This document shows positions 3-38,215 of a stretch of DNA of 46,547 nucleotides, in pieces; within the stretch, counting starts at the first letter, position 1, and every line of letters begins with the position of its first letter. This stretch comes from an uncultured Chitinophagaceae bacterium. GTDB lineage: Bacteria; Bacteroidota; Bacteroidia; Chitinophagales; Chitinophagaceae. The notes beneath the pieces are model-generated. The model ran no database searches, was not told the DNA's origin, and was given only the letters and a program-made list of their open reading frames with translations. The position numbers and the translations under genes were made by a program. The stretch is from assembly GCA_903907815.1 (NCBI GenBank), contig CAIVPM010000193.1, positions 1-46,547 of the forward strand. Direction: 5' to 3'.

Positions 3-485
3 ATCCGACTTTCTGATAAAGATTTAAAGAAGGTTACGCAAAAGATTATAGAGCTTGGTGATAGAAAAGAAACCGTTACACAGTCAGATTTACCCTATAT
101 TATTTCCGATGTATTAGATAGTAGTTCTATCGAAGAAAAGGTGCAGGTTTTAAACTATGTACTTACTCATTCCAAAGATTTAAGACCTTCGGTTACGCTC
201 AAACTTAATCTGAATGGAGAAGTGTTTGAAGAGCATGCACAGGGTGATGGACAGTATGATGCTTTTATGAATGCGCTTAAAACGATTTATAAAAAGAAGA
301 AACTGGATTTGCCGGTTCTAACAGATTATGCCGTTCGTATTCCACCCGGCGGTAAGTCCGATGCATTGTGCGAAACCATTATTACCTGGGATATACATGG
401 CAGAGAATTTAAAACAAGAGGCCTCGATTCCGATCAGACAGTTTCGGCAATACAAGCTACTCAGAAAATGTTGAATATGATTTAA
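3..485 (+). CDS. leuA: 2-isopropylmalate synthase, C-terminal part (5' truncated by window edge)
   Basis: LeuA condenses acetyl-CoA with 2-oxoisovalerate, the first committed step of leucine synthesis. Only the last 160 residues are in the window; the frame is open from base 3. They correspond to the C-terminal regulatory domain that binds leucine, seen in the GDGQYDAFMNAL stretch and the later VRIPPGGKSDALCETIITW stretch. The catalytic TIM barrel lies upstream of the window. leuB follows on the same strand, so this is a leucine operon, but the two genes are separated by about 670 bp holding a four-helix-bundle gene and inverted repeats. The open frame upstream of the GTG at 141 shows that the gene does not start there. 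Confidence 0.9.
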   Translation: MRLSDKDLKKVTQKIIELGDRKETVTQSDLPYIISDVLDSSSIEEKVQVLNYVLTHSKDLRPSVTLKLNLNGEVFEEHAQGDGQYDAFMNALKTIYKKKKLDLPVLTDYAVRIPPGGKSDALCETIITWDIHGREFKTRGLDSDQTVSAIQATQKMLNMI

Positions 486-514
486 TACAAGGCAAAGAGG
501 CAATAGGGGAATAC

Positions 515-551
515 AAGGGACAGAGGCAACAAGGCACAAAGGCACAAAGTG
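515..551 (+). repeat. left arm of 37-bp inverted repeat around four-helix-bundle gene
   Basis: This segment is the reverse complement of 1106..1142 with 36 of 37 positions matching; the one difference is the fifth base from its left end (G here, C expected). It begins 30 bp after the leuA stop. Its content is iterated GGCACAAA/GAGGCAA words. In an mRNA running from leuA to leuB the two arms could form a long stem with the intervening gene in the loop. Confidence 0.9.
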
Positions 552-611
552 AATACAGGGAGTAGAAAATACAAGCGGTTTTTAATTTTCGGCAAAGATA
601 AAATTAGGTTT

Positions 612-1007
612 ATGAGTTCTATTAATACTTATAGGGATTTGATAGTCTGGCAGAAATCTATGACTTTTGTTACGGAAGTATACTTGATAACGAAGAGCTT
701 TCCTTCAACTGAAAATTTTGGACTGATTAGTCAAATTAGAAGAAGTGCAATTTCAATTCCCAGTAATATTGCCGAAGGATATGGCAGAAAATCTACTGGC
801 GATTACATAAGATTTCTTCAAATTGCTGTAGGTTCTTTATTTGAATTACAAACGCAAATTGAAATAGCATTTAATTTGCTTTATATAGATAAAATAATAT
901 TTGATAAATCATTAATTAAAACAAGTGAGCTTGATAGAATGCTGTTTTCTTTGATTAATAAAATAAAAGGAAACGATGCACAAAAGTTCAGAGTAAACGA
1001 ATTATAG
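612..1007 (+). CDS. four-helix-bundle protein (S23/IVP-like, TIGR02436 type)
   Basis: This 131-aa protein belongs by its motifs to the four-helix-bundle family known from ORFs inside 23S rRNA intervening sequences and from the Avd accessory protein of diversity-generating retroelements. The visible family signature is YRDLIVWQKSM at the N terminus and a central RRSAISIPSNIAEGYGR block, followed by a helical C-terminal half. I chose the ATG at 612 because the conserved YRDLIVWQ begins five residues later; an in-frame ATG at 549 would add a tail unlike the family. The gene lies between leuA and leuB, inside a near-perfect 37-bp inverted repeat. Its molecular function is unknown; family members are thought to bind nucleic acid or protein partners. 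No leucine-related role is suggested by the sequence. Confidence 0.85.
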   Translation: MSSINTYRDLIVWQKSMTFVTEVYLITKSFPSTENFGLISQIRRSAISIPSNIAEGYGRKSTGDYIRFLQIAVGSLFELQTQIEIAFNLLYIDKIIFDKSLIKTSELDRMLFSLINKIKGNDAQKFRVNEL

Positions 1008-1073
1008 AATTGATTATTAAATTTGAAAAAAGAATTCATCATAGTTTAAAAAAATAAACAAAAGAGAGCAAAT

Positions 1074-1090
1074 CACTTTGTGCCTTTGTT
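1074..1090 (+). repeat. partial direct copy of the right repeat arm
   Basis: The word CACTTTGTGCCTTTGT occurs here and again 32 bp later at the start of the right arm (1106). This shows local duplication of the repeat word on the right side of the four-helix-bundle gene. Confidence 0.7.
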
Positions 1091-1105
1091 CCTTATTTTA
1101 AATAA

Positions 1106-1142
1106 CACTTTGTGCCTTTGTGCCTTGTTGCCTCTGTGCCTT
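1106..1142 (-). repeat. right arm of 37-bp inverted repeat
   Basis: Reverse complement of 515..551 (36/37). It ends 17 bp before the leuB start codon, so a stem formed by the two arms would lie directly upstream of leuB and could affect its translation or mRNA processing. Confidence 0.9.
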
Positions 1143-1159: not shown

Positions 1160-2233
1160 ATGGCAAACAAAAACATCCTAATCGTTCCGGGAGACGGAAT
1201 TGGACAAGAAGTAACAGCAGTGGGTAAAAAAGTACTCGATAAAATAGCTGCTAAGTACAATCATCAGTTTAATTACGATGAAGCTTTAATCGGTCATGTG
1301 GCTATCGAAGCTACAGGAAATCCCCTGCCAGATGAGTCTTTGGAGAAAATGAGAAACTCCGATGCCGTTTTGTTTGGTGCCGTTGGTCACCCTAAGTATG
1401 ATAACGATCCTTCTGCCAAGGTTAGGCCCGAGCAGGGATTATTAAAGATGCGTAAAGAGCTTGGACTCTATGCCAATCTTCGTCCAATAAAATTGTTCGA
1501 TGAATTGTTGAGCGCTTCCAGCATTAAGTCCGAGATTTTAAAAGGTGCTGATATATTATTCTTCCGCGAGCTGACAGGCGATATATATTTCGGTGAAAAA
1601 GGAAGAAAGAATGATGGCGATACCGCTTATGATATTGCCGAGTATAGCCGTTACGAAGTAGAGCGTATTGCCCGCCGTGCTTTCGAGGCCGCCCGTACCA
1701 GAAGAAAGAAACTTTGTTCCGTAGATAAAGCCAATGTATTGGAAACCTCTCGACTATGGCGCGAAGTGGTGCAGAAAGTAGCTTTGGAATATCCTGATAT
1801 CGAGGTGGAACATCAGTTTGTGGATTCTACTGCCATGATGCTTATCAAAGATCCTTGTCGTTTCGATGTGGTACTTACCGCCAATCTTTTTGGCGATATT
1901 CTTACCGATGAAGCCTCTCAGATTGCAGGTTCTATGGGAATGCTTGCTTCGGCTTCTATCGGCGATGGAACAGGCGTTTACGAGCCTATTCATGGCTCTG
2001 CTCACGATATTACCGGCAAGGGTGTTGCCAATCCGTTGGCTTCTATTCTTTCGGCCGCTTTATTGCTCGATATTTCTTTCGGTTTAAAGGAAGAATCGGT
2101 AGCCATCATTACGGCGGTAGAAGGCGTATTGAAAGCAGGTTTCCGTACCCGCGATATTGCCGATGCGAGTACCCCAGCCAATATGATTTTAGGTACCGAT
2201 GCAATGGGCGAAGAAGTACTGAATAGAATCTAA
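1160..2233 (+). CDS. leuB: 3-isopropylmalate dehydrogenase
   Basis: LeuB oxidatively decarboxylates 3-isopropylmalate with NAD+ to 2-oxoisocaproate in leucine synthesis (cytoplasmic, metal-dependent homodimer). The 357 residues match the usual family length. Visible features are the N-terminal PGDGIGQEV, the substrate-loop RELTGDIYFGEKGR near residue 136, the SVDKANVLETSRLWR segment, the metal-binding NLFGDILTDEASQIAGSMG region, and GSAHDI for NAD binding near residue 280. The ATG at 1160 gives the expected N terminus. It is downstream of leuA on the same strand. No intrinsic terminator is evident after it; a structured 202-bp repeat starts 65 bp past the stop. Confidence 0.97.
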   Translation: MANKNILIVPGDGIGQEVTAVGKKVLDKIAAKYNHQFNYDEALIGHVAIEATGNPLPDESLEKMRNSDAVLFGAVGHPKYDNDPSAKVRPEQGLLKMRKELGLYANLRPIKLFDELLSASSIKSEILKGADILFFRELTGDIYFGEKGRKNDGDTAYDIAEYSRYEVERIARRAFEAARTRRKKLCSVDKANVLETSRLWREVVQKVALEYPDIEVEHQFVDSTAMMLIKDPCRFDVVLTANLFGDILTDEASQIAGSMGMLASASIGDGTGVYEPIHGSAHDITGKGVANPLASILSAALLLDISFGLKEESVAIITAVEGVLKAGFRTRDIADASTPANMILGTDAMGEEVLNRI

Positions 2234-2539: not shown

Positions 2540-5533
2540 TTATACTAATTGTTCTTCTAACATATCCTTCCAGATAATAAATCCTTTCAAATTATTAGTA
2601 GAATAATCATGTAGTATTTTGCTAAATCCTTTTGGTTGAGTATCAAGGAAAAACTGTCTACCTTTATTTCTTATGATATTTAATTGACTATCTATCTCAT
2701 TTAATTTAGCAGTAAGCACTTCTCTATTTTTATCAAAATGCCATAAATAAGTTGCTTCTTCTGTATCAAGTGTTTCTAAAATAATATGAAATTGTTCAGC
2801 TCCTTCAATAAGAAACACAAATGAAAAAGGACTTAACACAAACCTTAATTTAAGTAGTGTACTTGCATGATTTAAAGCAAGGTGTCTAAGTTGTTTGAGG
2901 TGTTTATATTGAGTATGTTTTAATACATCATCCAACAATTCCTCTGCTGAATCATATAAATCATTTTTAGATTGAAGGAGAGTAATTTCTTTATTGGAAT
3001 CTTTTGAAAAAAAGGAAGAGTTCTTCCGGGAGACATCTTTAGTAATGAACTTAAATCTTACACTTTCAATAACCTCTCTGTTTATTTTTTCAATATCTCT
3101 TGATATGGCTAATTGAGAAATCAATTCATCATTTTCAAATTCTACATGAACCTCAACTTCAATGGTTTTAGAATGTAATTCCTTAGCAAAGAATGGTTTC
3201 AACACTTCAAATTCAGGTCTTATATCCAAATGCTCAATCTCAAAATCCAGTTCAATATTCAACTCATTTATTACATGTCTAAAACCAACACAGCCATATC
3301 TGAACTCCAATGATTCTATTGGAATATTTACGGTATAATCATATTTAAATATTTTATCTTTTGTTATAGTAGATATCTCATCTGATTCATTAAACAGTGT
3401 AGCTTCCTTTGCAAGTTTTCTATAATATGTATTTCTTTTAAGAAATAGTTTATTCAGATAATCAATTTTTATATCTCTGTAATCATATACAAAAGGAGTT
3501 ATTTCTGCTCTTTGTATTCTACCAATATATTGAATCAGTTTTCCTTCAAATGAAAAAGGGTAAACAAGAAAAAGACATTGAGCATTATGTAAATCTGTTC
3601 CTTCTCCAAAAAACTGACCTGTGGTAATTAATACCTGATAATTACCTTTTTTTAGCGCATCCCATTTTGCTTTTCTATTTGTCTCCGAATCCTCTCCACT
3701 CAATGCAATAGTTTCATAAGATTGCTTAAGATATTGGTTAAGTGATTCTATATGATCTTTTCTTTCTGTAATTAAAATTACTTTTTTACCTGATTTCAAT
3801 TCATTATTTACATCCGCAAGAATTAATTTGTTTCTTGTTGAATCATGTACTAATATTTTAGAAAGGGTTTCAAATTTATCTATTTTTGAATTAAACGGCA
3901 CATCAAGTTCTGTATTTCTGACAATGATTTTAGCTTGCTTTGCATTGCCAATATCTTGCGGTTTTAATTCTGAAATAATGTCACCTAAATGGATAAAAAT
4001 TAATTTACCATCATTATATTTTCTGAAAGGAGTGGCAGTTAAACCATAGAGATAATAACTATTAAATTTTGATATGGTACTATTATAAGTTTCCGCAGGA
4101 ATATGATGGCATTCATCAATTATAATTGTTCCAAACGAATTTAAAATAGTCACTTCAGATTTCTCTATTTCTTTGGTCAGACTTTGAATGGTAGCTATGG
4201 TTATTTGTTTGCCAATCTTATTCTTACCCTGTCCAATTTTACCAATTTGAGTTTTAGGAATCCCTAAAAAAGTTTCAATACGTTCTATCCATTGCTCAGC
4301 AAGTTGTTTTCTATGAACAACAATTAAAGCAGGCTGTTGTTTTTCAGCAATTATTTTCAAACCTACAACAGTCTTTCCAGATCCGGGAGGAGCTACAATT
4401 ACTCCTATATCTTTTTTGGCAGAAGCTTCAATTGCCGCATCTTGATGCTTCCTTAATATTGCATTGAATTCGAAAGTAACAGGTTCAAGTTTTTTTCTTT
4501 CATCAGTAAAATCATATTCAAATTGGTTCTCTCTGCAAAACCGAATTACTTTACCTATAAACCCTTTTGGTATTATTACATCATGTTCTTTTTCTTCAAT
4601 AAATTTAAAATAACGTTCTGTACCAAATGTATTTCTTCCTGATTTTTTCTTGATAATAAACGCTGAATTAGAAAAGTTTAATTCATCTTTCAGATACGCT
4701 TTCAGCAACCCATTTATACCTGCTCTGTTAATAGAAACAACATTGTTCAACGTTATTGTTAGTTTGCTACAAAGTGCTTTATTTTCTAATAGTTTTGTAG
4801 ATTTATCAGCTCCCGAAATATCTATAAATATTTTATCAAGAACAGTAGTTTCAATTTTCTTTAAGTTGCTCAGAAATTCCCATTGATCACCAAAGGGTTC
4901 TAATGTTTCGGCATTAATAAAACAACTATTACCTAGCTCAAAAGTCTTCTTAAATAAAGGCAATGCAATAAGATTTCCTAATCCTTTACCCGATAGATAA
5001 TCCTGATTTGGGAACAATCTATCAAAACTAGAACTCTTATCATACACGGAAAATATACCTGCTTGTTCTAAAATAGCAAGAAATATTTTTCTACTTTTAA
5101 ATGCAGGAAATGGTTGATTAAAGAATATCCATACATGTCCTCCTTTACCAGAGCGAGAACGTTCCAGATAAGATGGAATATTATTTTTGTTACATTCTTT
5201 TATAAAACATTTGCATTGTTCTACCCAGTTTTCTTTATCAAAATCTGCCACTAAAAACCAGGAAGTGTTATCATTCAATAATGGATAAACTCCAATGTGT
5301 TGTTCTCCATTAAGATGTTTTATTATTTGCTGATTGGTTAGAGTTAAATATGTTTTGTCAGGATAATTCTGAAAAGTACCTCCTTTTATTTTATGTACTC
5401 GAAATAAGTAAGGGTCAAAATAATAAGCAGGCATATACCCACTTTTATTTCCTTTTTCCCATCTTGTTGCAAACACATCTTCGCGCCCTTTAAAAAGGGA
5501 TTTGAATATGTTTATTTGCTCCTCTGTAATCAT
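2540..5533 (-). CDS. primase-helicase of TOTE conflict-system type (AEP primase + SF2 helicase)
   Basis: A 997-aa multidomain protein. The N-terminal ~230 residues look like an archaeo-eukaryotic primase domain of the TOTE type: a catalytic ADFD acidic pair at residues 96-99 and SGKGGHVWIFF at 128-138. An SF2 helicase follows: Walker A APPGSGKT at 381-388, DECHH at 473-477, LTATPFR at 498-504, and motif VI QYIGRIQR at 668-675. The C-terminal ~300 residues are helical, with no nuclease motif I can recognise. TOTE proteins are predicted, not proven, to act in conflicts with mobile DNA. It lies 85 bp downstream of the ABC-three-component genes on the same strand and may be cotranscribed. A plain helicase annotation would miss the primase part. 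Confidence 0.8.
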   Translation of the reverse strand: MITEEQINIFKSLFKGREDVFATRWEKGNKSGYMPAYYFDPYLFRVHKIKGGTFQNYPDKTYLTLTNQQIIKHLNGEQHIGVYPLLNDNTSWFLVADFDKENWVEQCKCFIKECNKNNIPSYLERSRSGKGGHVWIFFNQPFPAFKSRKIFLAILEQAGIFSVYDKSSSFDRLFPNQDYLSGKGLGNLIALPLFKKTFELGNSCFINAETLEPFGDQWEFLSNLKKIETTVLDKIFIDISGADKSTKLLENKALCSKLTITLNNVVSINRAGINGLLKAYLKDELNFSNSAFIIKKKSGRNTFGTERYFKFIEEKEHDVIIPKGFIGKVIRFCRENQFEYDFTDERKKLEPVTFEFNAILRKHQDAAIEASAKKDIGVIVAPPGSGKTVVGLKIIAEKQQPALIVVHRKQLAEQWIERIETFLGIPKTQIGKIGQGKNKIGKQITIATIQSLTKEIEKSEVTILNSFGTIIIDECHHIPAETYNSTISKFNSYYLYGLTATPFRKYNDGKLIFIHLGDIISELKPQDIGNAKQAKIIVRNTELDVPFNSKIDKFETLSKILVHDSTRNKLILADVNNELKSGKKVILITERKDHIESLNQYLKQSYETIALSGEDSETNRKAKWDALKKGNYQVLITTGQFFGEGTDLHNAQCLFLVYPFSFEGKLIQYIGRIQRAEITPFVYDYRDIKIDYLNKLFLKRNTYYRKLAKEATLFNESDEISTITKDKIFKYDYTVNIPIESLEFRYGCVGFRHVINELNIELDFEIEHLDIRPEFEVLKPFFAKELHSKTIEVEVHVEFENDELISQLAISRDIEKINREVIESVRFKFITKDVSRKNSSFFSKDSNKEITLLQSKNDLYDSAEELLDDVLKHTQYKHLKQLRHLALNHASTLLKLRFVLSPFSFVFLIEGAEQFHIILETLDTEEATYLWHFDKNREVLTAKLNEIDSQLNIIRNKGRQFFLDTQPKGFSKILHDYSTNNLKGFIIWKDMLEEQLV

Positions 5534-5618
5534 CGATTATAACTATCTACTTTTTCTCATTTTAGGAAATTGAGCTTACTAGCCTTATTCAATTCTTCAA
5601 TATTAATTATTTATAGGC

Positions 5619-7319
5619 TTACTCTTTTATCCTAAACAACTTATCATCTTGTGATAGCTTAACTATGAAATACTCCTCTTTATTAATTTCTTCAGGTAGT
5701 TTATCTTTAAGAATTGATGCAACAAACTGGATATTGTTTTTATTTACAAAATCTGCAATTTTTACCAACTGTTTATCGTCCATTAGTTCTTTTTTATCAT
5801 TCAATAAAAAGTGTAAGCAAGGAATATTTTCTTCATCTGCAAACATGGTATAAGCTAAATCAAAACAAGATATTTCCCCTTGCTTTTTCCCAGAGCTCAT
5901 ATTCGTATTAAATGAATTAAATTTATAGAGTCTCTGACCTTTTTGGTTAGTTATAATATCCCATTTTACTGCATATTGTTCTCCATATAATTCGTTTGAA
6001 ATTGATGCAAAGTATTTGTTGAATTTATTTAATTGTGATTTCACAACAAGTTCAAAATCTTCACTAAAAAGTTCGTTATCAATTTCATTTAGTTGTTTGT
6101 TGAACTCTTTAATATTCAATTCAACCTCACTTAACTGTTGAATAATATTTTCATATTCTCCTTTCTTTCTGTACTTTTCAGTTAACACAGTTATTACCTG
6201 TTCAAGTTCTTCAAATGAATCGCTTTTTGAAATTGCATTAGTTAATTTTCTTTCCTCAGAAAGCAATCGTGTAAGTGAATTGTTATTATCAGAAATTGAT
6301 TTTTCTAGAGTCGGTAATTCTTTAGTAATGAATTTTACCTTTTCTTCAATCATAGTATTATGATAAGCCACAAGATCTGAAAATGATTTTTGTATAGTCT
6401 TTACTTTATTTGTAGCTTGTTCATATATAATTTCTAGTTGTCTTAGGTCTATATTTGACTTGCTTGATTTAAGTTCATCCTCTGTTTCTTTTATTAAGTC
6501 TTTACGAATATTCATTTTTCCAATACTCGAACTTAATTTATTGATAGAGTATCTAACATCGTTTAACTTATCTAAGTCCTTTTCAAAATTCTCGTTTAAA
6601 TTAAAATTACTCTTCTTTTTATTTAACTCCTCAATATCATTATTGATTAATGAAAGTGCTGTTTCATAAGCAGTTTTCGTTTGACTTTTTTCAAGTCTTT
6701 TTTTGAAGGTATCTTCTTGTTTTAGTTTAGAAATAATTTCTTGTTTACTATTTCCCTTTATAAAATTACAACCAAATAAAAATAAATATAGCGATTCGTA
6801 TTGTTCTGTTTTACCATAGGGTAACGTATTTAAAGTATTACTTAAACTCTCATCTCTGTATCTTATGTTGTGAGAAATTATTTGCCTGAAACTTGGAGTA
6901 GAAGTTAGATGTTCGGGGAAAATTATATTTGACAATGTATCTTCAAACTCTTCCTCAGTTAACTGTTTGCCATTTATTTTTCTAACAAGTTCTTTTCCCT
7001 TTGATAAAAAATTCCTTTCTATTATAATATTATCATTCCTTTCAAAATCATTTGTAATCTCAAGTCTAATTAATATTTTTTCATTAACTAGAAATTTTTT
7101 TACAACTTCATCTGCTTTTTTTGATTCCTCATCAATATAAATATGTTTCCCGTCTGCTCCTAAACAAAAATCAACCAATTTCAATACAGTAGTTTTTCCA
7201 ACACTATTGCCTGTTATTTGGAATTCACTTTCATCAATAATTAAATTAAGCCCTTTGTGAAACTTAATTTCACGAATGATTTTACTACCACTGGTTATTG
7301 ATAATGATTTTATGAACAT
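5619..7319 (-). CDS. DUF2326-type ABC ATPase of an ABC-three-component (ABC-3C) system
   Basis: A 566-aa Rad50/SMC-like ATPase. The Walker A motif GNSVGKTT lies at residues 37-44, a long Lys/Glu-rich coiled coil spans roughly 195-420, and the C-terminal half carries SGKKQGE and the segment PCLHFLLND, which fits the DUF2326 Walker-B region. ABC-3C systems pair such an ATPase with a small middle component and an effector, and are predicted to sense invading DNA or DNA ends. The start ATG overlaps the end of the middle-component gene by 10 bp, as expected for a translationally coupled operon. The ATPase is probably the sensor; no direct evidence for a trigger is visible. Confidence 0.85.
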   Translation of the reverse strand: MFIKSLSITSGSKIIREIKFHKGLNLIIDESEFQITGNSVGKTTVLKLVDFCLGADGKHIYIDEESKKADEVVKKFLVNEKILIRLEITNDFERNDNIIIERNFLSKGKELVRKINGKQLTEEEFEDTLSNIIFPEHLTSTPSFRQIISHNIRYRDESLSNTLNTLPYGKTEQYESLYLFLFGCNFIKGNSKQEIISKLKQEDTFKKRLEKSQTKTAYETALSLINNDIEELNKKKSNFNLNENFEKDLDKLNDVRYSINKLSSSIGKMNIRKDLIKETEDELKSSKSNIDLRQLEIIYEQATNKVKTIQKSFSDLVAYHNTMIEEKVKFITKELPTLEKSISDNNNSLTRLLSEERKLTNAISKSDSFEELEQVITVLTEKYRKKGEYENIIQQLSEVELNIKEFNKQLNEIDNELFSEDFELVVKSQLNKFNKYFASISNELYGEQYAVKWDIITNQKGQRLYKFNSFNTNMSSGKKQGEISCFDLAYTMFADEENIPCLHFLLNDKKELMDDKQLVKIADFVNKNNIQFVASILKDKLPEEINKEEYFIVKLSQDDKLFRIKE

Positions 7320-7537
7320 AATTCTATTTCTCCTTTTGAATTAAACTTAGCAACATCCAATAAATACAACCAATCTAAACAAAGTATAAAAACAGAAAAA
7401 GACATTTGCTTTTTAGCTTTTACATCTTGATATAAGTCTAGCATGCTGTAACTCTTTTCTTTTTTCAAAGATTCTATTACAAATGCGCCATTGTAATAAA
7501 TACTATTTTCAGGATGTATGTTATCGGGTAGCAGCAT
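7310..7537 (-). CDS. ABC-3C system small middle component (MC6-like)
   Basis: A 75-aa protein starting MLLPDNIHPENSIYYNG. The pattern of an N-terminal LLPD...ENSI(Y)YNGA stretch, a short helix, and a C-terminal SFSVFILCLDWLYLLD helix followed by a beta hairpin resembles the middle component 6 class; the class number is from memory. I prefer the ATG at 7537 over the frame's earlier start at 7579 because the conserved part begins there. It overlaps the SMEK gene upstream by 17 bp and the ATPase gene downstream by 10 bp. In ABC-3C systems this component is thought to couple the ATPase to the effector. Confidence 0.75.
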   Translation of the reverse strand: MLLPDNIHPENSIYYNGAFVIESLKKEKSYSMLDLYQDVKAKKQMSFSVFILCLDWLYLLDVAKFNSKGEIELCS

Positions 7538-8486
7538 AGTTATTAGGGTTTTCAAATATTTTACATCTAATAAAAGCATCTACAACTAATACATTTAAAC
7601 AAAGCTCTAGTTCTTCAATTGGTATTTCTATATAATTTGCACTATTAATTACCTTTTCTTCAATTTTAGAAATTATCTCAAAAAAAAGTTGGTCATCTTT
7701 TAAATTGCTTTTAGCTTTAGCATACTCTTGTCTGATAGAAGCTAAAACAGACTTACTCTTATTGCTGCCCAATGAATCAAATTCTGAATAAATTCTATCT
7801 ACTCTTCCATAATGAATAAAATAGTCTTCTATTATTAATTTGGCTGAGGTTAAATTATTAAAAGAAATTTTTCTATCAATCTCAAAGCTATTGATTTCAA
7901 ATTCAAAATCAATATTATCTAAATCCTCTTTTGACAAAATATTTATAATTGAAGCCAGGTTAGATTCCATTTTCATTGCATCAATTTCAGCACCCAATTC
8001 TTTTTTGATAAATTGATAAACCCTTTTTTGACTTTCTGGATTCATATTTTTTATAAATGTCAGAATAGATTTGTTATCAATAATATCTACAAAAGGATCA
8101 AACTTAATTCCATGTGGATTATTAAACTTGTTTTTCCTTAAATCATCCGCATTTATTGCAATTGATACAAATTTATAAGTATACTCTTTAAATTGTTTTA
8201 TGGAGTCTTTTGATAATGATGATTCAATTTTTTGCTTTGTTGCAGTAGCTGATACTTGAATAATTAGTTTGTTTCCAATATCAATTAAATCGATTGCTTC
8301 AACATTTTGTTTGTTAGCATTTTCATTTTTAAGATCCCAACTATAAACCTCATTTAATAAATATTGATAGAAGTTTTCAGAGTGCCCATGCAAATCAAGA
8401 ATGTTCAACTTACCTCTCGATATTATCCGAGTTGCTAAGTGATTTAACCTGTCTTCAATAAAATTAAAGTAAATTGACCTTTTCAT
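7521..8486 (-). CDS. SMEK-domain protein, predicted nuclease effector of ABC-3C system
   Basis: A 321-aa protein whose N terminus matches the SMEK domain: residues 11-60 contain EDRLNHLATRIISRGKLNIL and ENFYQYLLNEVYSWDL, then EAIDLIDIGNKLIIQVSATA at 63-82 and TKQKIESSL. SMEK is regarded as a restriction-endonuclease-fold domain; the D...QVS arrangement is the likely active-site region. The remaining ~220 residues are helical with no motif I recognise. It is the first gene of the SMEK, middle component, DUF2326 set, and a TAAGTTTG promoter element lies 11 bp upstream. The most likely role is target or host nucleic-acid cleavage once the ATPase detects an invader; this is inference from family context. 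Confidence 0.8.
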   Translation of the reverse strand: MKRSIYFNFIEDRLNHLATRIISRGKLNILDLHGHSENFYQYLLNEVYSWDLKNENANKQNVEAIDLIDIGNKLIIQVSATATKQKIESSLSKDSIKQFKEYTYKFVSIAINADDLRKNKFNNPHGIKFDPFVDIIDNKSILTFIKNMNPESQKRVYQFIKKELGAEIDAMKMESNLASIINILSKEDLDNIDFEFEINSFEIDRKISFNNLTSAKLIIEDYFIHYGRVDRIYSEFDSLGSNKSKSVLASIRQEYAKAKSNLKDDQLFFEIISKIEEKVINSANYIEIPIEELELCLNVLVVDAFIRCKIFENPNNYAATR

Positions 8487-11835: not shown

Positions 11836-11940
11836 AACTTGCGGCAAAGAAAAACAAAACGGAGCATTTATTGGGGATGGGGTAATAAGTTGTGGGGTTA
11901 TAGTTTACATAACCTATAAATGTGGATATTGAGCATGATA

Positions 11941-12431
11941 ATCGTGAATCGTGAAAATACATCGTGAGTCGTGAGGAATGCAGAATACATTGAACCACAG
12001 AGACAGGGCGACACAGTGGTGCACAGTGCTTTTCTATAATACCAATACAGAGAACAGAGAGAACCGCTAGCGGTTGGGCAGATGATAAAAATCGTCGTGA
12101 GGAATACAGAATACAATTGAACCACAGAGACACGGCGGCACAGAGGAACACTGAGGTTTTTAATACTAATACAGAGAACACGGAGAACCGCGGCGGTTTG
12201 ATACAAACAAAATGTAATAGGTAATCTATATTTAGAATAGAATACAATTAGTGAATTAGCGGATTGGCTGATTGAATACAAATACATTCAACGCAGAGAA
12301 AGGAGGGAAAGAGAATACAATTGGTGAATTAACGGATTGCTGATTAAATTCATTAATCCAATCAATTTGTCCAATTATACAAAACTGTATTCATTATCTC
12401 ATTATCAAATTGTCACATTATCTCAATAGTA
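11941..12431. repeat. mosaic of simple intergenic repeat words
   Basis: No gene is supported here. The spacer starts with iterated ATCGTGA(A/G)TC words (11941..11974). A roughly 110-bp unit containing GAACCACAGAGACA and CAATACAGAGAACA-like words then occurs twice in direct order (11961..12075 and 12091..12198). A shorter unit, GAATACAATT(A/G)GTGAATTA plus CGGATT, occurs at 12240 and 12313. CATTATCTCATTATC words precede the tryptophanase stop. The open minus-strand frames across this region consist of these repeats. Confidence 0.75.
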
Positions 12432-17460: not shown

Positions 17461-17690
17461 CTCTTTATAATCTGTTTCAAATGCATTATAAAGTCTTTCA
17501 AAGCCTATATAATTTGTTTCAAATGCATAGTAATCTCTTTCAAACCCCTTATAATCTGTTTCAAATGCATTATAATTTGTTTCCAGACCAATATAAGCTG
17601 TTTCAAATACATTATAATCTGTTACCAGACCATTATAAACTGTTGCAAATACATTATAATCTATTACCAGACCAATATAAATTGATTAAA
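17461..17690. repeat. degenerate 21-bp-period repeat array C
   Basis: TATAA (or one-base variants) recurs at 17466, 17487, 17508, 17529, 17550, 17571, 17592, 17613, 17634, 17655 and 17676: eleven units with an exact 21-bp step. The intervening 16 bp alternate between TTTCAAATGCAT-like and TTACCAGACCA-like forms, so the array also has a loose higher-order pattern. The open plus-strand frame at 17451..17720 is a consequence of the 7-codon period and has no coding signature. Confidence 0.9.
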
Positions 17691-19936: not shown

Positions 19937-20422
19937 ATGGATTTAAAACAAATTCACGAGTTAATAAAGATTGTTAACAAGAGTAATATCGGAGAAATTA
20001 GTATCGAGGACAAAGATGGTAAAGTAACCATCAAACAAAAGGAAGAACCTGCTGTTACAATTGCTCCTCAACAAGCACAAGTATATAACGTTCCTGCTGC
20101 TCATGCACCGGCTCCTGTAGCGGCGGCGGCTCCTGCTGTTTCAGCTGTAGCTCCTGCTGTACCAGAAGCAAAAGCAGATAACCTTATTACTATCAAGAGC
20201 CCAATGATTGGTACATTCTACCGTCGCTCTTCTCCAGACAAACCAAACCTGATTGAATTAGGTGGAGATGTAGCTCCTGGTGATGTAGTTTGTATCATTG
20301 AAGCGATGAAACTTTTCAATGAAATTGAAAGTGAAGTAGGTGGTAAAATTGTAAAGGTATTAGTAGAAAATGCTAGTCCTGTAGAATACGATCAACCATT
20401 GTTTTTAGTAGAGCCAGCATAA
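19937..20422 (+). CDS. accB: biotin carboxyl carrier protein of acetyl-CoA carboxylase
   Basis: AccB carries biotin between the carboxylase and transferase sites of acetyl-CoA carboxylase, the first step of fatty-acid synthesis. The 161-aa protein has a short N-terminal helical region, an Ala/Pro-rich linker (about 50-78), and a biotinyl domain with [11 protein letters not shown], in which K125 is the biotinylation site. The start ATG at 19937 gives the standard [11 protein letters not shown] terminus. accC normally follows directly; here a four-helix-bundle gene and inverted repeats intervene. Confidence 0.96.
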
Positions 20423-20427
20423 ATAGC

Positions 20428-20455
20428 AATTAGCTAATGTGCTGATCTGCTAATT
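20428..20455 (+). repeat. left arm of 28-bp inverted repeat around second four-helix-bundle gene
   Basis: It matches the reverse complement of 20933..20960 at 26 of 28 positions; the core AATTAGCTAATGTGCTGAT (19 bp) is identical. It begins 6 bp after the accB stop. Its GCTAAT/TTAGC words are unrelated to the arms at the leu locus. Confidence 0.85.
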
Positions 20456-20932: not shown

Positions 20933-20960
20933 AATTAGTACATCAGCACATTAGCTAATT
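20933..20960 (-). repeat. right arm of 28-bp inverted repeat
   Basis: Reverse complement of 20428..20455 (26/28). It ends 16 bp before the accC start, and the AGCTAATT word continues to about 20968, so a stem would end almost at the accC start region, the same geometry as at leuB. Confidence 0.85.
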
Positions 20961-20976: not shown

Positions 20977-22317
20977 ATGTTTAAAAAGATATTGATTGCA
21001 AACCGTGGAGAAATTGCTTTACGTGTTATTCGTACCTGTAGAGAAATGGGTATTAAAACCGTAGCTGTTTATTCTACCGCAGATAAAGATAGTTTGCACG
21101 TACGTTTTGCCGATGAGGCAGTTTGTATTGGTAAACCTGCCAGTAGCGAATCATACTTATCTATTCCTAATATTATGGCCGCAGCAGAGATTACCAATGC
21201 TGATGCTATACATCCCGGTTATGGATTTCTGGCAGAAAATGCTAAGTTCTCTCAGATTTGTGCTGATCATGGTATTAAGTTTATCGGGCCTACTCCTGAG
21301 ATGATCAATGCTATGGGAGATAAGATTACCGCTAAAGAAACCATGATTAAAGCGGGTGTACCTACTATTCCTGGTAGTGCAGGATTATTAAATAGTTTGG
21401 AAGAAGCTATTGATTTAGCAAAGAATCTGGTAGGCTATCCTGTAATATTAAAAGCTACAGCAGGTGGTGGTGGAAAGGGTATGAGAGTAGTATGGGAAGA
21501 AAGCGAAATGGAGCGTGCCTACAATACTGCTAAAGCGGAAGCTGGTGCAGCATTTAAGAATGATGGCATCTACATGGAGAAATTTGTGGAAGAACCTCGT
21601 CATATAGAGATTCAGATTGCTGGAGATCAGTATGGTACTGTATGTCACTTAAGTGAAAGAGATTGCTCTATTCAAAGAAGACATCAGAAGCTGGTTGAAG
21701 AATCTCCTTCTCCTTTCATGACTGATGATTTAAGACAAAAAATGGGTGAAGCTGCTATTAAAGCTGCTTCTGCAATCAACTACGAAAGCGTTGGTACCAT
21801 TGAGTTCTTAGTTGATAAACACCGCAACTTCTACTTCATGGAAATGAATACCCGTATTCAGGTAGAACATTGCGTAACAGAAGAAGTAATTAGTTTCGAT
21901 CTGATTAAAGAACAAATAAAGATTGCATTGGGTGAGCGACTTTCTGGTATGAATCACCTTCCTAAGATGCATGCTATTGAATGTAGAATTAATGCAGAAG
22001 ATCCATATAACGACTTTAGACCTTCTCCAGGAAAAATCACTACGCTTCATACGCCGGGTGGTCATGGAGTAAGAGTAGATAGTCATGTATATGCAGGATA
22101 CGTTATTCCGCCTTATTACGACAGTATGATAGGAAAGCTGATAACTGTTGCACAAACAAGAGAAGAGGCCATTAATACTATGTATAGAGCCCTTAGCGAG
22201 TATGTGATAGAAGGTGTGAAGACAACCATTCCTTTCCATCTTCAGTTAATGAAAAATGAAGACTTCATTGCGGGTAACTTTAATACGAAGTTCCTTGAAG
22301 GATTTACAATGAAATAA
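20977..22317 (+). CDS. accC: biotin carboxylase subunit of acetyl-CoA carboxylase
   Basis: AccC carboxylates biotin on AccB using ATP and bicarbonate. The 446-aa product has the family length and order: N-terminal biotin-carboxylase domain ([20 protein letters not shown]), ATP-grasp domain with [10 protein letters not shown] (163-172), [19 protein letters not shown] (224-242), the catalytic [10 protein letters not shown] (289-298), and a C-terminal domain with PSPGKI. It continues the accB unit and ends 31 bp before a strong bidirectional terminator. Confidence 0.97.
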
Positions 22318-37993: not shown

Positions 37994-38215
37994 CTTTCCG
38001 TACTATGGAGAAACCTTTCCCTAATACGGGGAATTCCATCCGTCCTCGGGAATATGTTTTCCGCTTTATGGGCAATACTTTCCGCCCTCGGGGAGACCTT
38101 TTCCGTACTAGGGCAGACCCTTTCCGCCCTCGGGGAGATGCTTTCCGTCATCGGGGAGACCTTTTCCATCGTCGGGAATATGTTTTCCGCCATGGAGTAG
38201 ATGTTTTCCGTCGGC
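37994..38215. repeat. degenerate 21-bp-period repeat array D
   Basis: (T/A)TCC anchors occur at 37996, 38017, 38038, 38059, 38080, 38101, 38122, 38143, 38164, 38185 and 38206: eleven units with an exact 21-bp step. Typical units read TTTCCGCCCTCGGGGAGA with variants; GTACTA and CATCGG forms alternate. It is noticeably richer in G+C than its surroundings. The small open frames on both strands here are by-products of the 7-codon period. The rest of the 1-kb spacer (37668..37993 and 38216..38665) contains nothing that I can support. Confidence 0.92.

Follow-up and report, generated by a model that had tools for sequence, protein, structure and literature searches.

S23/IVP genes bracketed by their own inverted short tandem repeats suggest an unrecognised protein-repeat system in many phyla

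S23 elements of the window and of its genome

The window is a 46,547-nt stretch of DNA from an uncultured Chitinophagaceae bacterium (genome G000; 3.9 Mb in 511 contigs). It opens on the plus strand with the 3′ end of leuA (3..485; PF08502, LeuA_dimer domain, E 1e-24; best NCBIfam match NF042433), which reads as a 2-isopropylmalate synthase/citramalate synthase type and is the upstream gene of an operon. The downstream operon gene is leuB, encoding 3-isopropylmalate dehydrogenase (1160..2233, plus strand; TIGR00169, E 1e-135). Between the two lies a gene for a 131-aa four-helix-bundle protein of the S23/IVP family (612..1007, plus strand). Its start was taken as the ATG at 612, the GTG at 549 being a mechanical ORF call. 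The protein scored well over the curated cut-offs of PF05635 (133.2 bits against 33.8, E 5e-39) and TIGR02436 (129.2 against 24, E 7e-38), in agreement with the initial annotation, which had placed it in the family of the 23S rRNA intervening-sequence proteins; 2gsc (XCC0516) and 2rld are solved relatives. Against the copy in G001, a genome of the same genus, 10 synonymous and 3 nonsynonymous changes were counted, and by this ratio the gene appears to be under constraint.

The S23 gene is the only gene between two inverted arms, which were delimited by inverted-repeat and periodicity analysis. The left arm (515..551, plus strand) is a tandem array of GGCACAAA-type units in sense orientation, and the right arm (1106..1142, minus strand) is its inverted copy. 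Each arm is 37 nt long with an 8-nt period of GGCACAAA and close variants, and the two are complementary at 36/37 positions and 554 nt apart, so that the near-perfect arms first noticed at this locus were confirmed. The left arm begins 29 nt after the leuA stop codon, which ends at 485, and the right arm ends 17 nt before the leuB ATG at 1160. An arm pair of this strength (flank-to-flank inverted repeat score 34) was found in 0 of 845 mismatched flank pairs and at 0 of 385 neighbour genes, and is thus beyond chance. Self-comparison and dispersed copies delimited an outer left partial module of a related unit, AGGCAAAGAGGCAATAGGGG (486..509, plus strand), while inverted and direct matches placed an inner right partial module of the GGCACAAA-type unit at 1073..1097 (minus strand). 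In the sequence, AATACA motifs on the plus strand punctuate the left-hand modules (484-489, 510-515, 552-557 and 568-573). A CRISPR-like array was considered and rejected, as a constant repeat/spacer structure is absent.

A second S23 element is present in the window. Its gene (L019; 20540..20902, plus strand; PF05635, E 9e-20) is preceded by a left arm of GCTAATNN-type units (20428..20455, plus strand) and followed by a right arm (20933..20960, minus strand), with 93% complementarity over 28 nt; the neighbours, assigned by Pfam, are accB (19937-20422) and accC (20977-22317). Altogether, 12 PF05635 genes were found in G000, two of them cut by contig ends. Most of those with complete flanks lie between inverted arms of short period (7-8-mers), each with a unit of its own: GGAGWYA at L010, GTCGTGA at L013, CGAATTAG-like at L014, ATGTTGAA-like at L015, AATTTGAAAA-like at L018, GCTAATNN at L019 and AAAACTAA at L020. 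Only one side of L011 carries a strong array, and L012 has no clear arms. L018 is located between two genes that read, by sequence and not by profile, as CoA-transferase subunits A and B. S23 genes within one genome are at most 61% identical in pairs; the gene stays single copy, with no recent copies.

Elsewhere in the window, a possible defence cluster was noted on the minus strand (2540-8486), with a TOTE-type primase-helicase (AEP-TOTE), a DUF2326 protein (PADLOC PDC-M68B, LmuB-like) and a SMEK/ABC-3C CTD10 protein. Tandem repeats of 42 nt and 21 nt occur at 17465-17680 and 38039-38213, respectively.

Dispersed arms, empty sites and gene-less copies

A search of G000 with the leuA-leuB spacer gave 81 matches, nearly all of them to the arms. 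In the 20 matching regions that were read, the GGCACAAA-type copies are intergenic, and most stand alone as modules of about 36 nt with the consensus AAGGCACAAAGGCAAC[G/A]AGGCACAAAGGCACAAAGT. These modules are made of tandem, one-stranded units and are not palindromes. They are often joined to other unit types with AATACA in between. Whatever the unit family, this motif flanks the modules on either side and reads on the same strand as they do (e.g. L219-L238 in G000); it may belong to the module itself or represent a target motif, such as a target-site duplication. The GGCACAAA solos are in sense to the 5′ gene in 15 of 19 cases, often 6-20 nt past its stop codon. TCGTGAR solos, unlike these, showed no consistent placement relative to genes, and the placement after stop codons was therefore not taken as a general rule. 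Solo TCGTGAR units also occur in the window (11942..11975, plus strand), and their cognate S23 gene is at G000:C380:10109-10423. They lie in a long intergenic mosaic (11940-12430) of TCGTGAR solos and GAATTAGCGGATT-type modules, punctuated by AATACA throughout, which also contains a tandem repeat of 127 nt (11968-12198) built of units of the ACAGAG type.

The arms at leuA-leuB are thus unexceptional copies of a dispersed repeat, set in inverted orientation. They had initially been regarded as a dedicated stem of this locus; as a complete account of the arms this was rejected, because the same arms are found alone at many intergenic sites. Arms without the gene at other loci, together with RNA ends unprocessed at the arms, had been named in advance as observations against that reading, and the first half of these was found, solo intergenic arms being common in G000.

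The leuA-leuB spacers of related genomes were compared. Three genomes of the same family (G025, G024 and G009) have empty spacers of 20-40 nt, which bears out the proposal that the whole unit is a discrete insertion; a fourth has a spacer of about 115 nt without S23. The S23 element is present at the same junction in G001 and in G175, a genome of another genus whose S23 protein is 64% identical. Empty spacers in some relatives and occupied ones in G001 and G175 point to an old, discrete insertion. None of the genomes compared showed the gain of an S23 gene at strain level. Between G000 and G001 the two arms changed by 16 nt each, independently, indicating that a fixed stem was not kept. In G029, of another genus, the leuA-leuB spacer (L024 1310-1490) carries gene-less inverted arms of GGTTRCA heptamers with other sequence nested inside. 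In G014 and G023 the leuA-leuB junction is occupied by unrelated ORFs (L026 820-1416, L027 833-1477), so that interruptions here are frequent within the family.

Two genomes of other phyla, G561 and G559, contain gene-less inverted doublets of 85-341 bp. Like MITEs or other non-autonomous elements, they place the same inverted ends at several positions without a gene. One pair within one genome is identical at 192/225 positions and lies at two places with unrelated flanks, and its left edge coincides with the left arm. This was the only copied gene-less pair found, and doublets of this type were seen in other phyla, with none for the GGCACAAA family of the window.

Inverted arms and cognate repeats across the S23 family

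S23 genes are frequent in bacteria: 107 of 149 genomes of the order have them, one genome was found with as many as 15, and the named relatives of the window S23 span many phyla. In a sample of these relatives, S23 genes were located and oriented by profile before their flanks were scored, and a flank-to-flank inverted repeat score of at least 14 was taken as the arm criterion. With this score, which overlooks gapped or weak arms, inverted arms were found at 93/169 S23 genes (55%), compared with 10/385 neighbour genes (2.6%) and 1/845 mismatched flanks (Fisher 2e-46 for the enrichment at S23 genes). The rate was 53% when the set was widened to 215 S23 genes. Nearly half of the S23 genes have no detectable arms, and some are one-sided (L323).

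Arm sequence was then set against protein relatedness. At unrelated genomic places, the mean Jaccard index of arm 6-mers was 0.031 for proteins of 50-90% identity and 0.012 after permutation (0/5000 permutations), host phylogeny being handled in this test solely by the exclusion of shared neighbourhoods. The index climbed with identity class, from about 0.004 to 0.06 and 0.25. Units linked to clades were recognised, such as TCGTGAR/GTGANNN in the L013 clade and RATKTGNN in the L019 clade. Among the scored members of the window's clade, 19 of 20 upstream arms read in sense (19:1) and 18 of 19 downstream arms in antisense (18:1). Arm sequence therefore tracks the protein clade, and arm orientation is nearly invariant.

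The dispersed repeats also co-occur with their cognate S23. Among the 149 genomes of the order, the ten that have the closest L013 homologues were compared with the other 139: the TCGTGAR repeat TCGTGARTCGTGAR reached at least five places in 6 of the former and in 3 of the latter (Fisher 1e-6), and these 3 have the repeat but no close cognate S23. Nine genomes of other phyla with a GGCACA-armed S23 have GGCACARAGGCACARAG at 9-472 places, the S23's own arms included in the count: Opitutales (472), Nitrospirae (148, 36 and 21), Lentisphaerae (75), a deltaproteobacterium (57), Caldithrix (25), Desulfobacteraceae (13) and Kiritimatiellae (9). Seven further GGCACA-armed genomes have only 0-3 such places, and 16 genomes whose window-clade S23 carries other arms have 0-2 (Mann-Whitney 2e-5). 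Exact GGCACAAAGGCACAAAG is little informative in the order beyond its own genome, because a cognate S23 of more than 60% identity occurs only in G000 and G175.

Short-period intergenic repeats are common, and cyanobacteria have the STRR heptamers, orphan short tandem intergenic repeats akin to TAACTGA. The TAACTGA heptamers have been published without an S23 partner, the candidates being S1, Csp and CsrA; no mechanism for their spread is evident, and they have been proposed as translational control sites (PMC4679880). If the link between S23 and repeats is general, some S23 genes are expected beside TAACTGA arrays. (TAACTGA)3 was found in 18/395 Bacteroidota genomes. When 14 of the 18 were searched with PF05635, an S23 gene was located about 40-90 nt from the array in two of them, G471 and G294, and in most of the 14 the array is not beside S23. 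The two array-adjacent S23 proteins are mutual best hits among the 215 (59% identity), although their hosts belong to different families, and two such adjacencies would arise by chance with a probability of roughly 5e-4. The prediction drawn from this published orphan heptamer thus held in two genomes.

Interpretation and alternatives

The closest known architecture is that of RAYT-REP/REPIN, also called TnpA-REP (Nunvar 2010, PMC2817692; Bertels 2011, PMC3116915). At S23 loci, too, the gene lies between two inverted copies of its cognate repeat, and the repeat is dispersed and extragenic in the genome. Relatedness of protein and repeat agrees in both, for S23 by k-mer permutation (0/5000) and not by tree comparison. 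RAYT genes are single copy (PMC3116915), as are S23 genes, and gene-less inverted doublets occur alongside. On the other hand, S23 is a four-helix bundle in which the Y1/HUH tyrosine transposase domain is absent, its repeats are tandem 7-8-mers where RAYT-REP units are palindromes, and its genes lie in sense within operons. The profile search of the window S23 returned only PF05635 and a weak bAvd match, with no DNA-moving enzyme visible. The S23 loci are therefore RAYT-REP-like in architecture, yet lack the transposase and palindromes by which RAYT-REP is defined. The bAvd match (PF22296, E 7e-5, below cut-off) is to a related four-helix-bundle family, the Avd proteins of diversity-generating retroelements. 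Such a retroelement was rejected here, since the neighbours are leuA, leuB, accB and accC and not an adjacent reverse transcriptase with a TR/VR pair. With TAACTGA, the S23 repeats have in common short tandem intergenic units, mixed unit families, whole-unit indels and sporadic distribution; the difference is the S23 partner, not proposed before, two TAACTGA arrays here adjoining S23 genes of one clade.

The intervening sequences of 23S rRNA in Leptospira and Coxiella resemble the window element in having a PF05635 protein between complementary ends and a sporadic presence, and RNase III excises the Coxiella intervening sequence that carries the S23 ORF (PMC4990558). The initial annotation had asked whether the leuA-leuB element is an mRNA counterpart: the arms would pair in the leuA-S23-leuB transcript and be cut by RNase III, releasing the S23 piece or insulating leuB. 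On this reading, the element would persist through its removal from RNA. The long stem that it envisaged was recovered in folding, where the arms are the predicted 36-bp closing stem of the RNA of 486-1159 (z -8.1, 0/20 shuffles). The context differs from that in rRNA, in line with its proposal of a new setting, the element being intergenic in the leuA-leuB operon with no Rfam match in the window. Slipped stem forms are predicted for the G001 spacer (z -2.9), and the two arms of a locus are more alike than either is to the arms of close homologues. Moreover, 185 of 204 S23 genes lie between same-strand genes, 178 of the 185 in sense; this placement would fit expression by read-through and is compatible with, rather than proof of, an RNA step. 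However, sense orientation is also usual for ordinary operon genes, control gene triples being all-sense in 49/71 cases. The arms of the window element, known here from sequence, are tandem repeats that also stand alone at many intergenic sites, they changed length independently in G000 and G001, and a stem by itself leaves clade-specific arm sequence and dispersal unexplained. We regard this reading as doubtful as the whole account, while RNase III processing of the intervening-sequence kind is possible and may operate alongside an S23-repeat system.

Somewhat less probable still is autoregulation, in which S23 would be a DNA- or RNA-binding regulator with the arms as its own operators and the solos as targets, and nothing would be mobile. 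The co-variation of protein and unit, the sense placement of GGCACAAA solos and the translational control role proposed for TAACTGA repeats (PMC4679880) all speak for such a regulon. It fits poorly with the mosaic solos, in which units of several families are linked by AATACA, with the inconsistent placement of TCGTGAR, with gene-less doublets copied along with their inner sequence and with insertions that some relatives have and others lack. Such repeats abound in the genome, and the S23 flanks could merely be repeat-rich regions where repeats gather passively in intergenic space. This was rejected as very improbable on the neighbour-gene and mismatched-flank controls, as inverted arms are so much rarer at neighbour genes of the same loci, and arm orientation is nearly fixed and the unit tracks the S23 clade across phyla.

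The observed association, clade specificity, orientation, dispersal and one copied gene-less unit are probably best explained by an S23-cognate repeat system, in which an S23/IVP gene is bracketed by its own inverted 7-8-nt repeat with solos and doublets dispersed in the genome, in a RAYT-REP-like manner. From co-variation and co-occurrence, we infer that the S23 protein is specific for its own repeat unit and would bind it. The inverted arms would delimit a unit capable of insertion and copying, whether still mobile or mobile in the past, and the S23 gene, in sense within operons, would probably be expressed by read-through. To our knowledge, S23 has no catalytic domain and no enzyme activity that could move DNA. 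Insertion would thus need host machinery or a partner, and a stem of the arms in mRNA may make the insert more tolerable to the host, as with the intervening sequences of 23S rRNA. More tentatively, S23 proteins may be specificity factors of a new class of repeat-propagating elements without a transposase, each clade reading a 7-8-nt code of its own in the inverted arms. Host enzymes, suggested by the lack of a known catalytic domain in S23, would spread the solos and doublets, possibly via an RNA intermediate, given that the genes lie in sense within operons. This one process would then have produced both the intervening sequences of rRNA and the orphan heptamer and octamer repeats found in Bacteroidota, in Cyanobacteria and in further phyla.

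In the open-access literature, no description of a link between S23/IVP proteins and repeats was found; a prior description in subscription papers or preprints, outside that scope, is possible. These results suggest that, in many phyla, S23 proteins belong with their repeats to a single unrecognised system in which every protein version has a repeat of its own. The finding is wider than the single locus from which it started and holds for much of the S23 family. We know of no function for S23/IVP proteins. The link would give this orphan protein family a testable function, the orphan repeats a partner, and the rRNA intervening sequences a possible origin. If true, it would be a RAYT-REP-like repeat system built on an unrelated, non-transposase protein.
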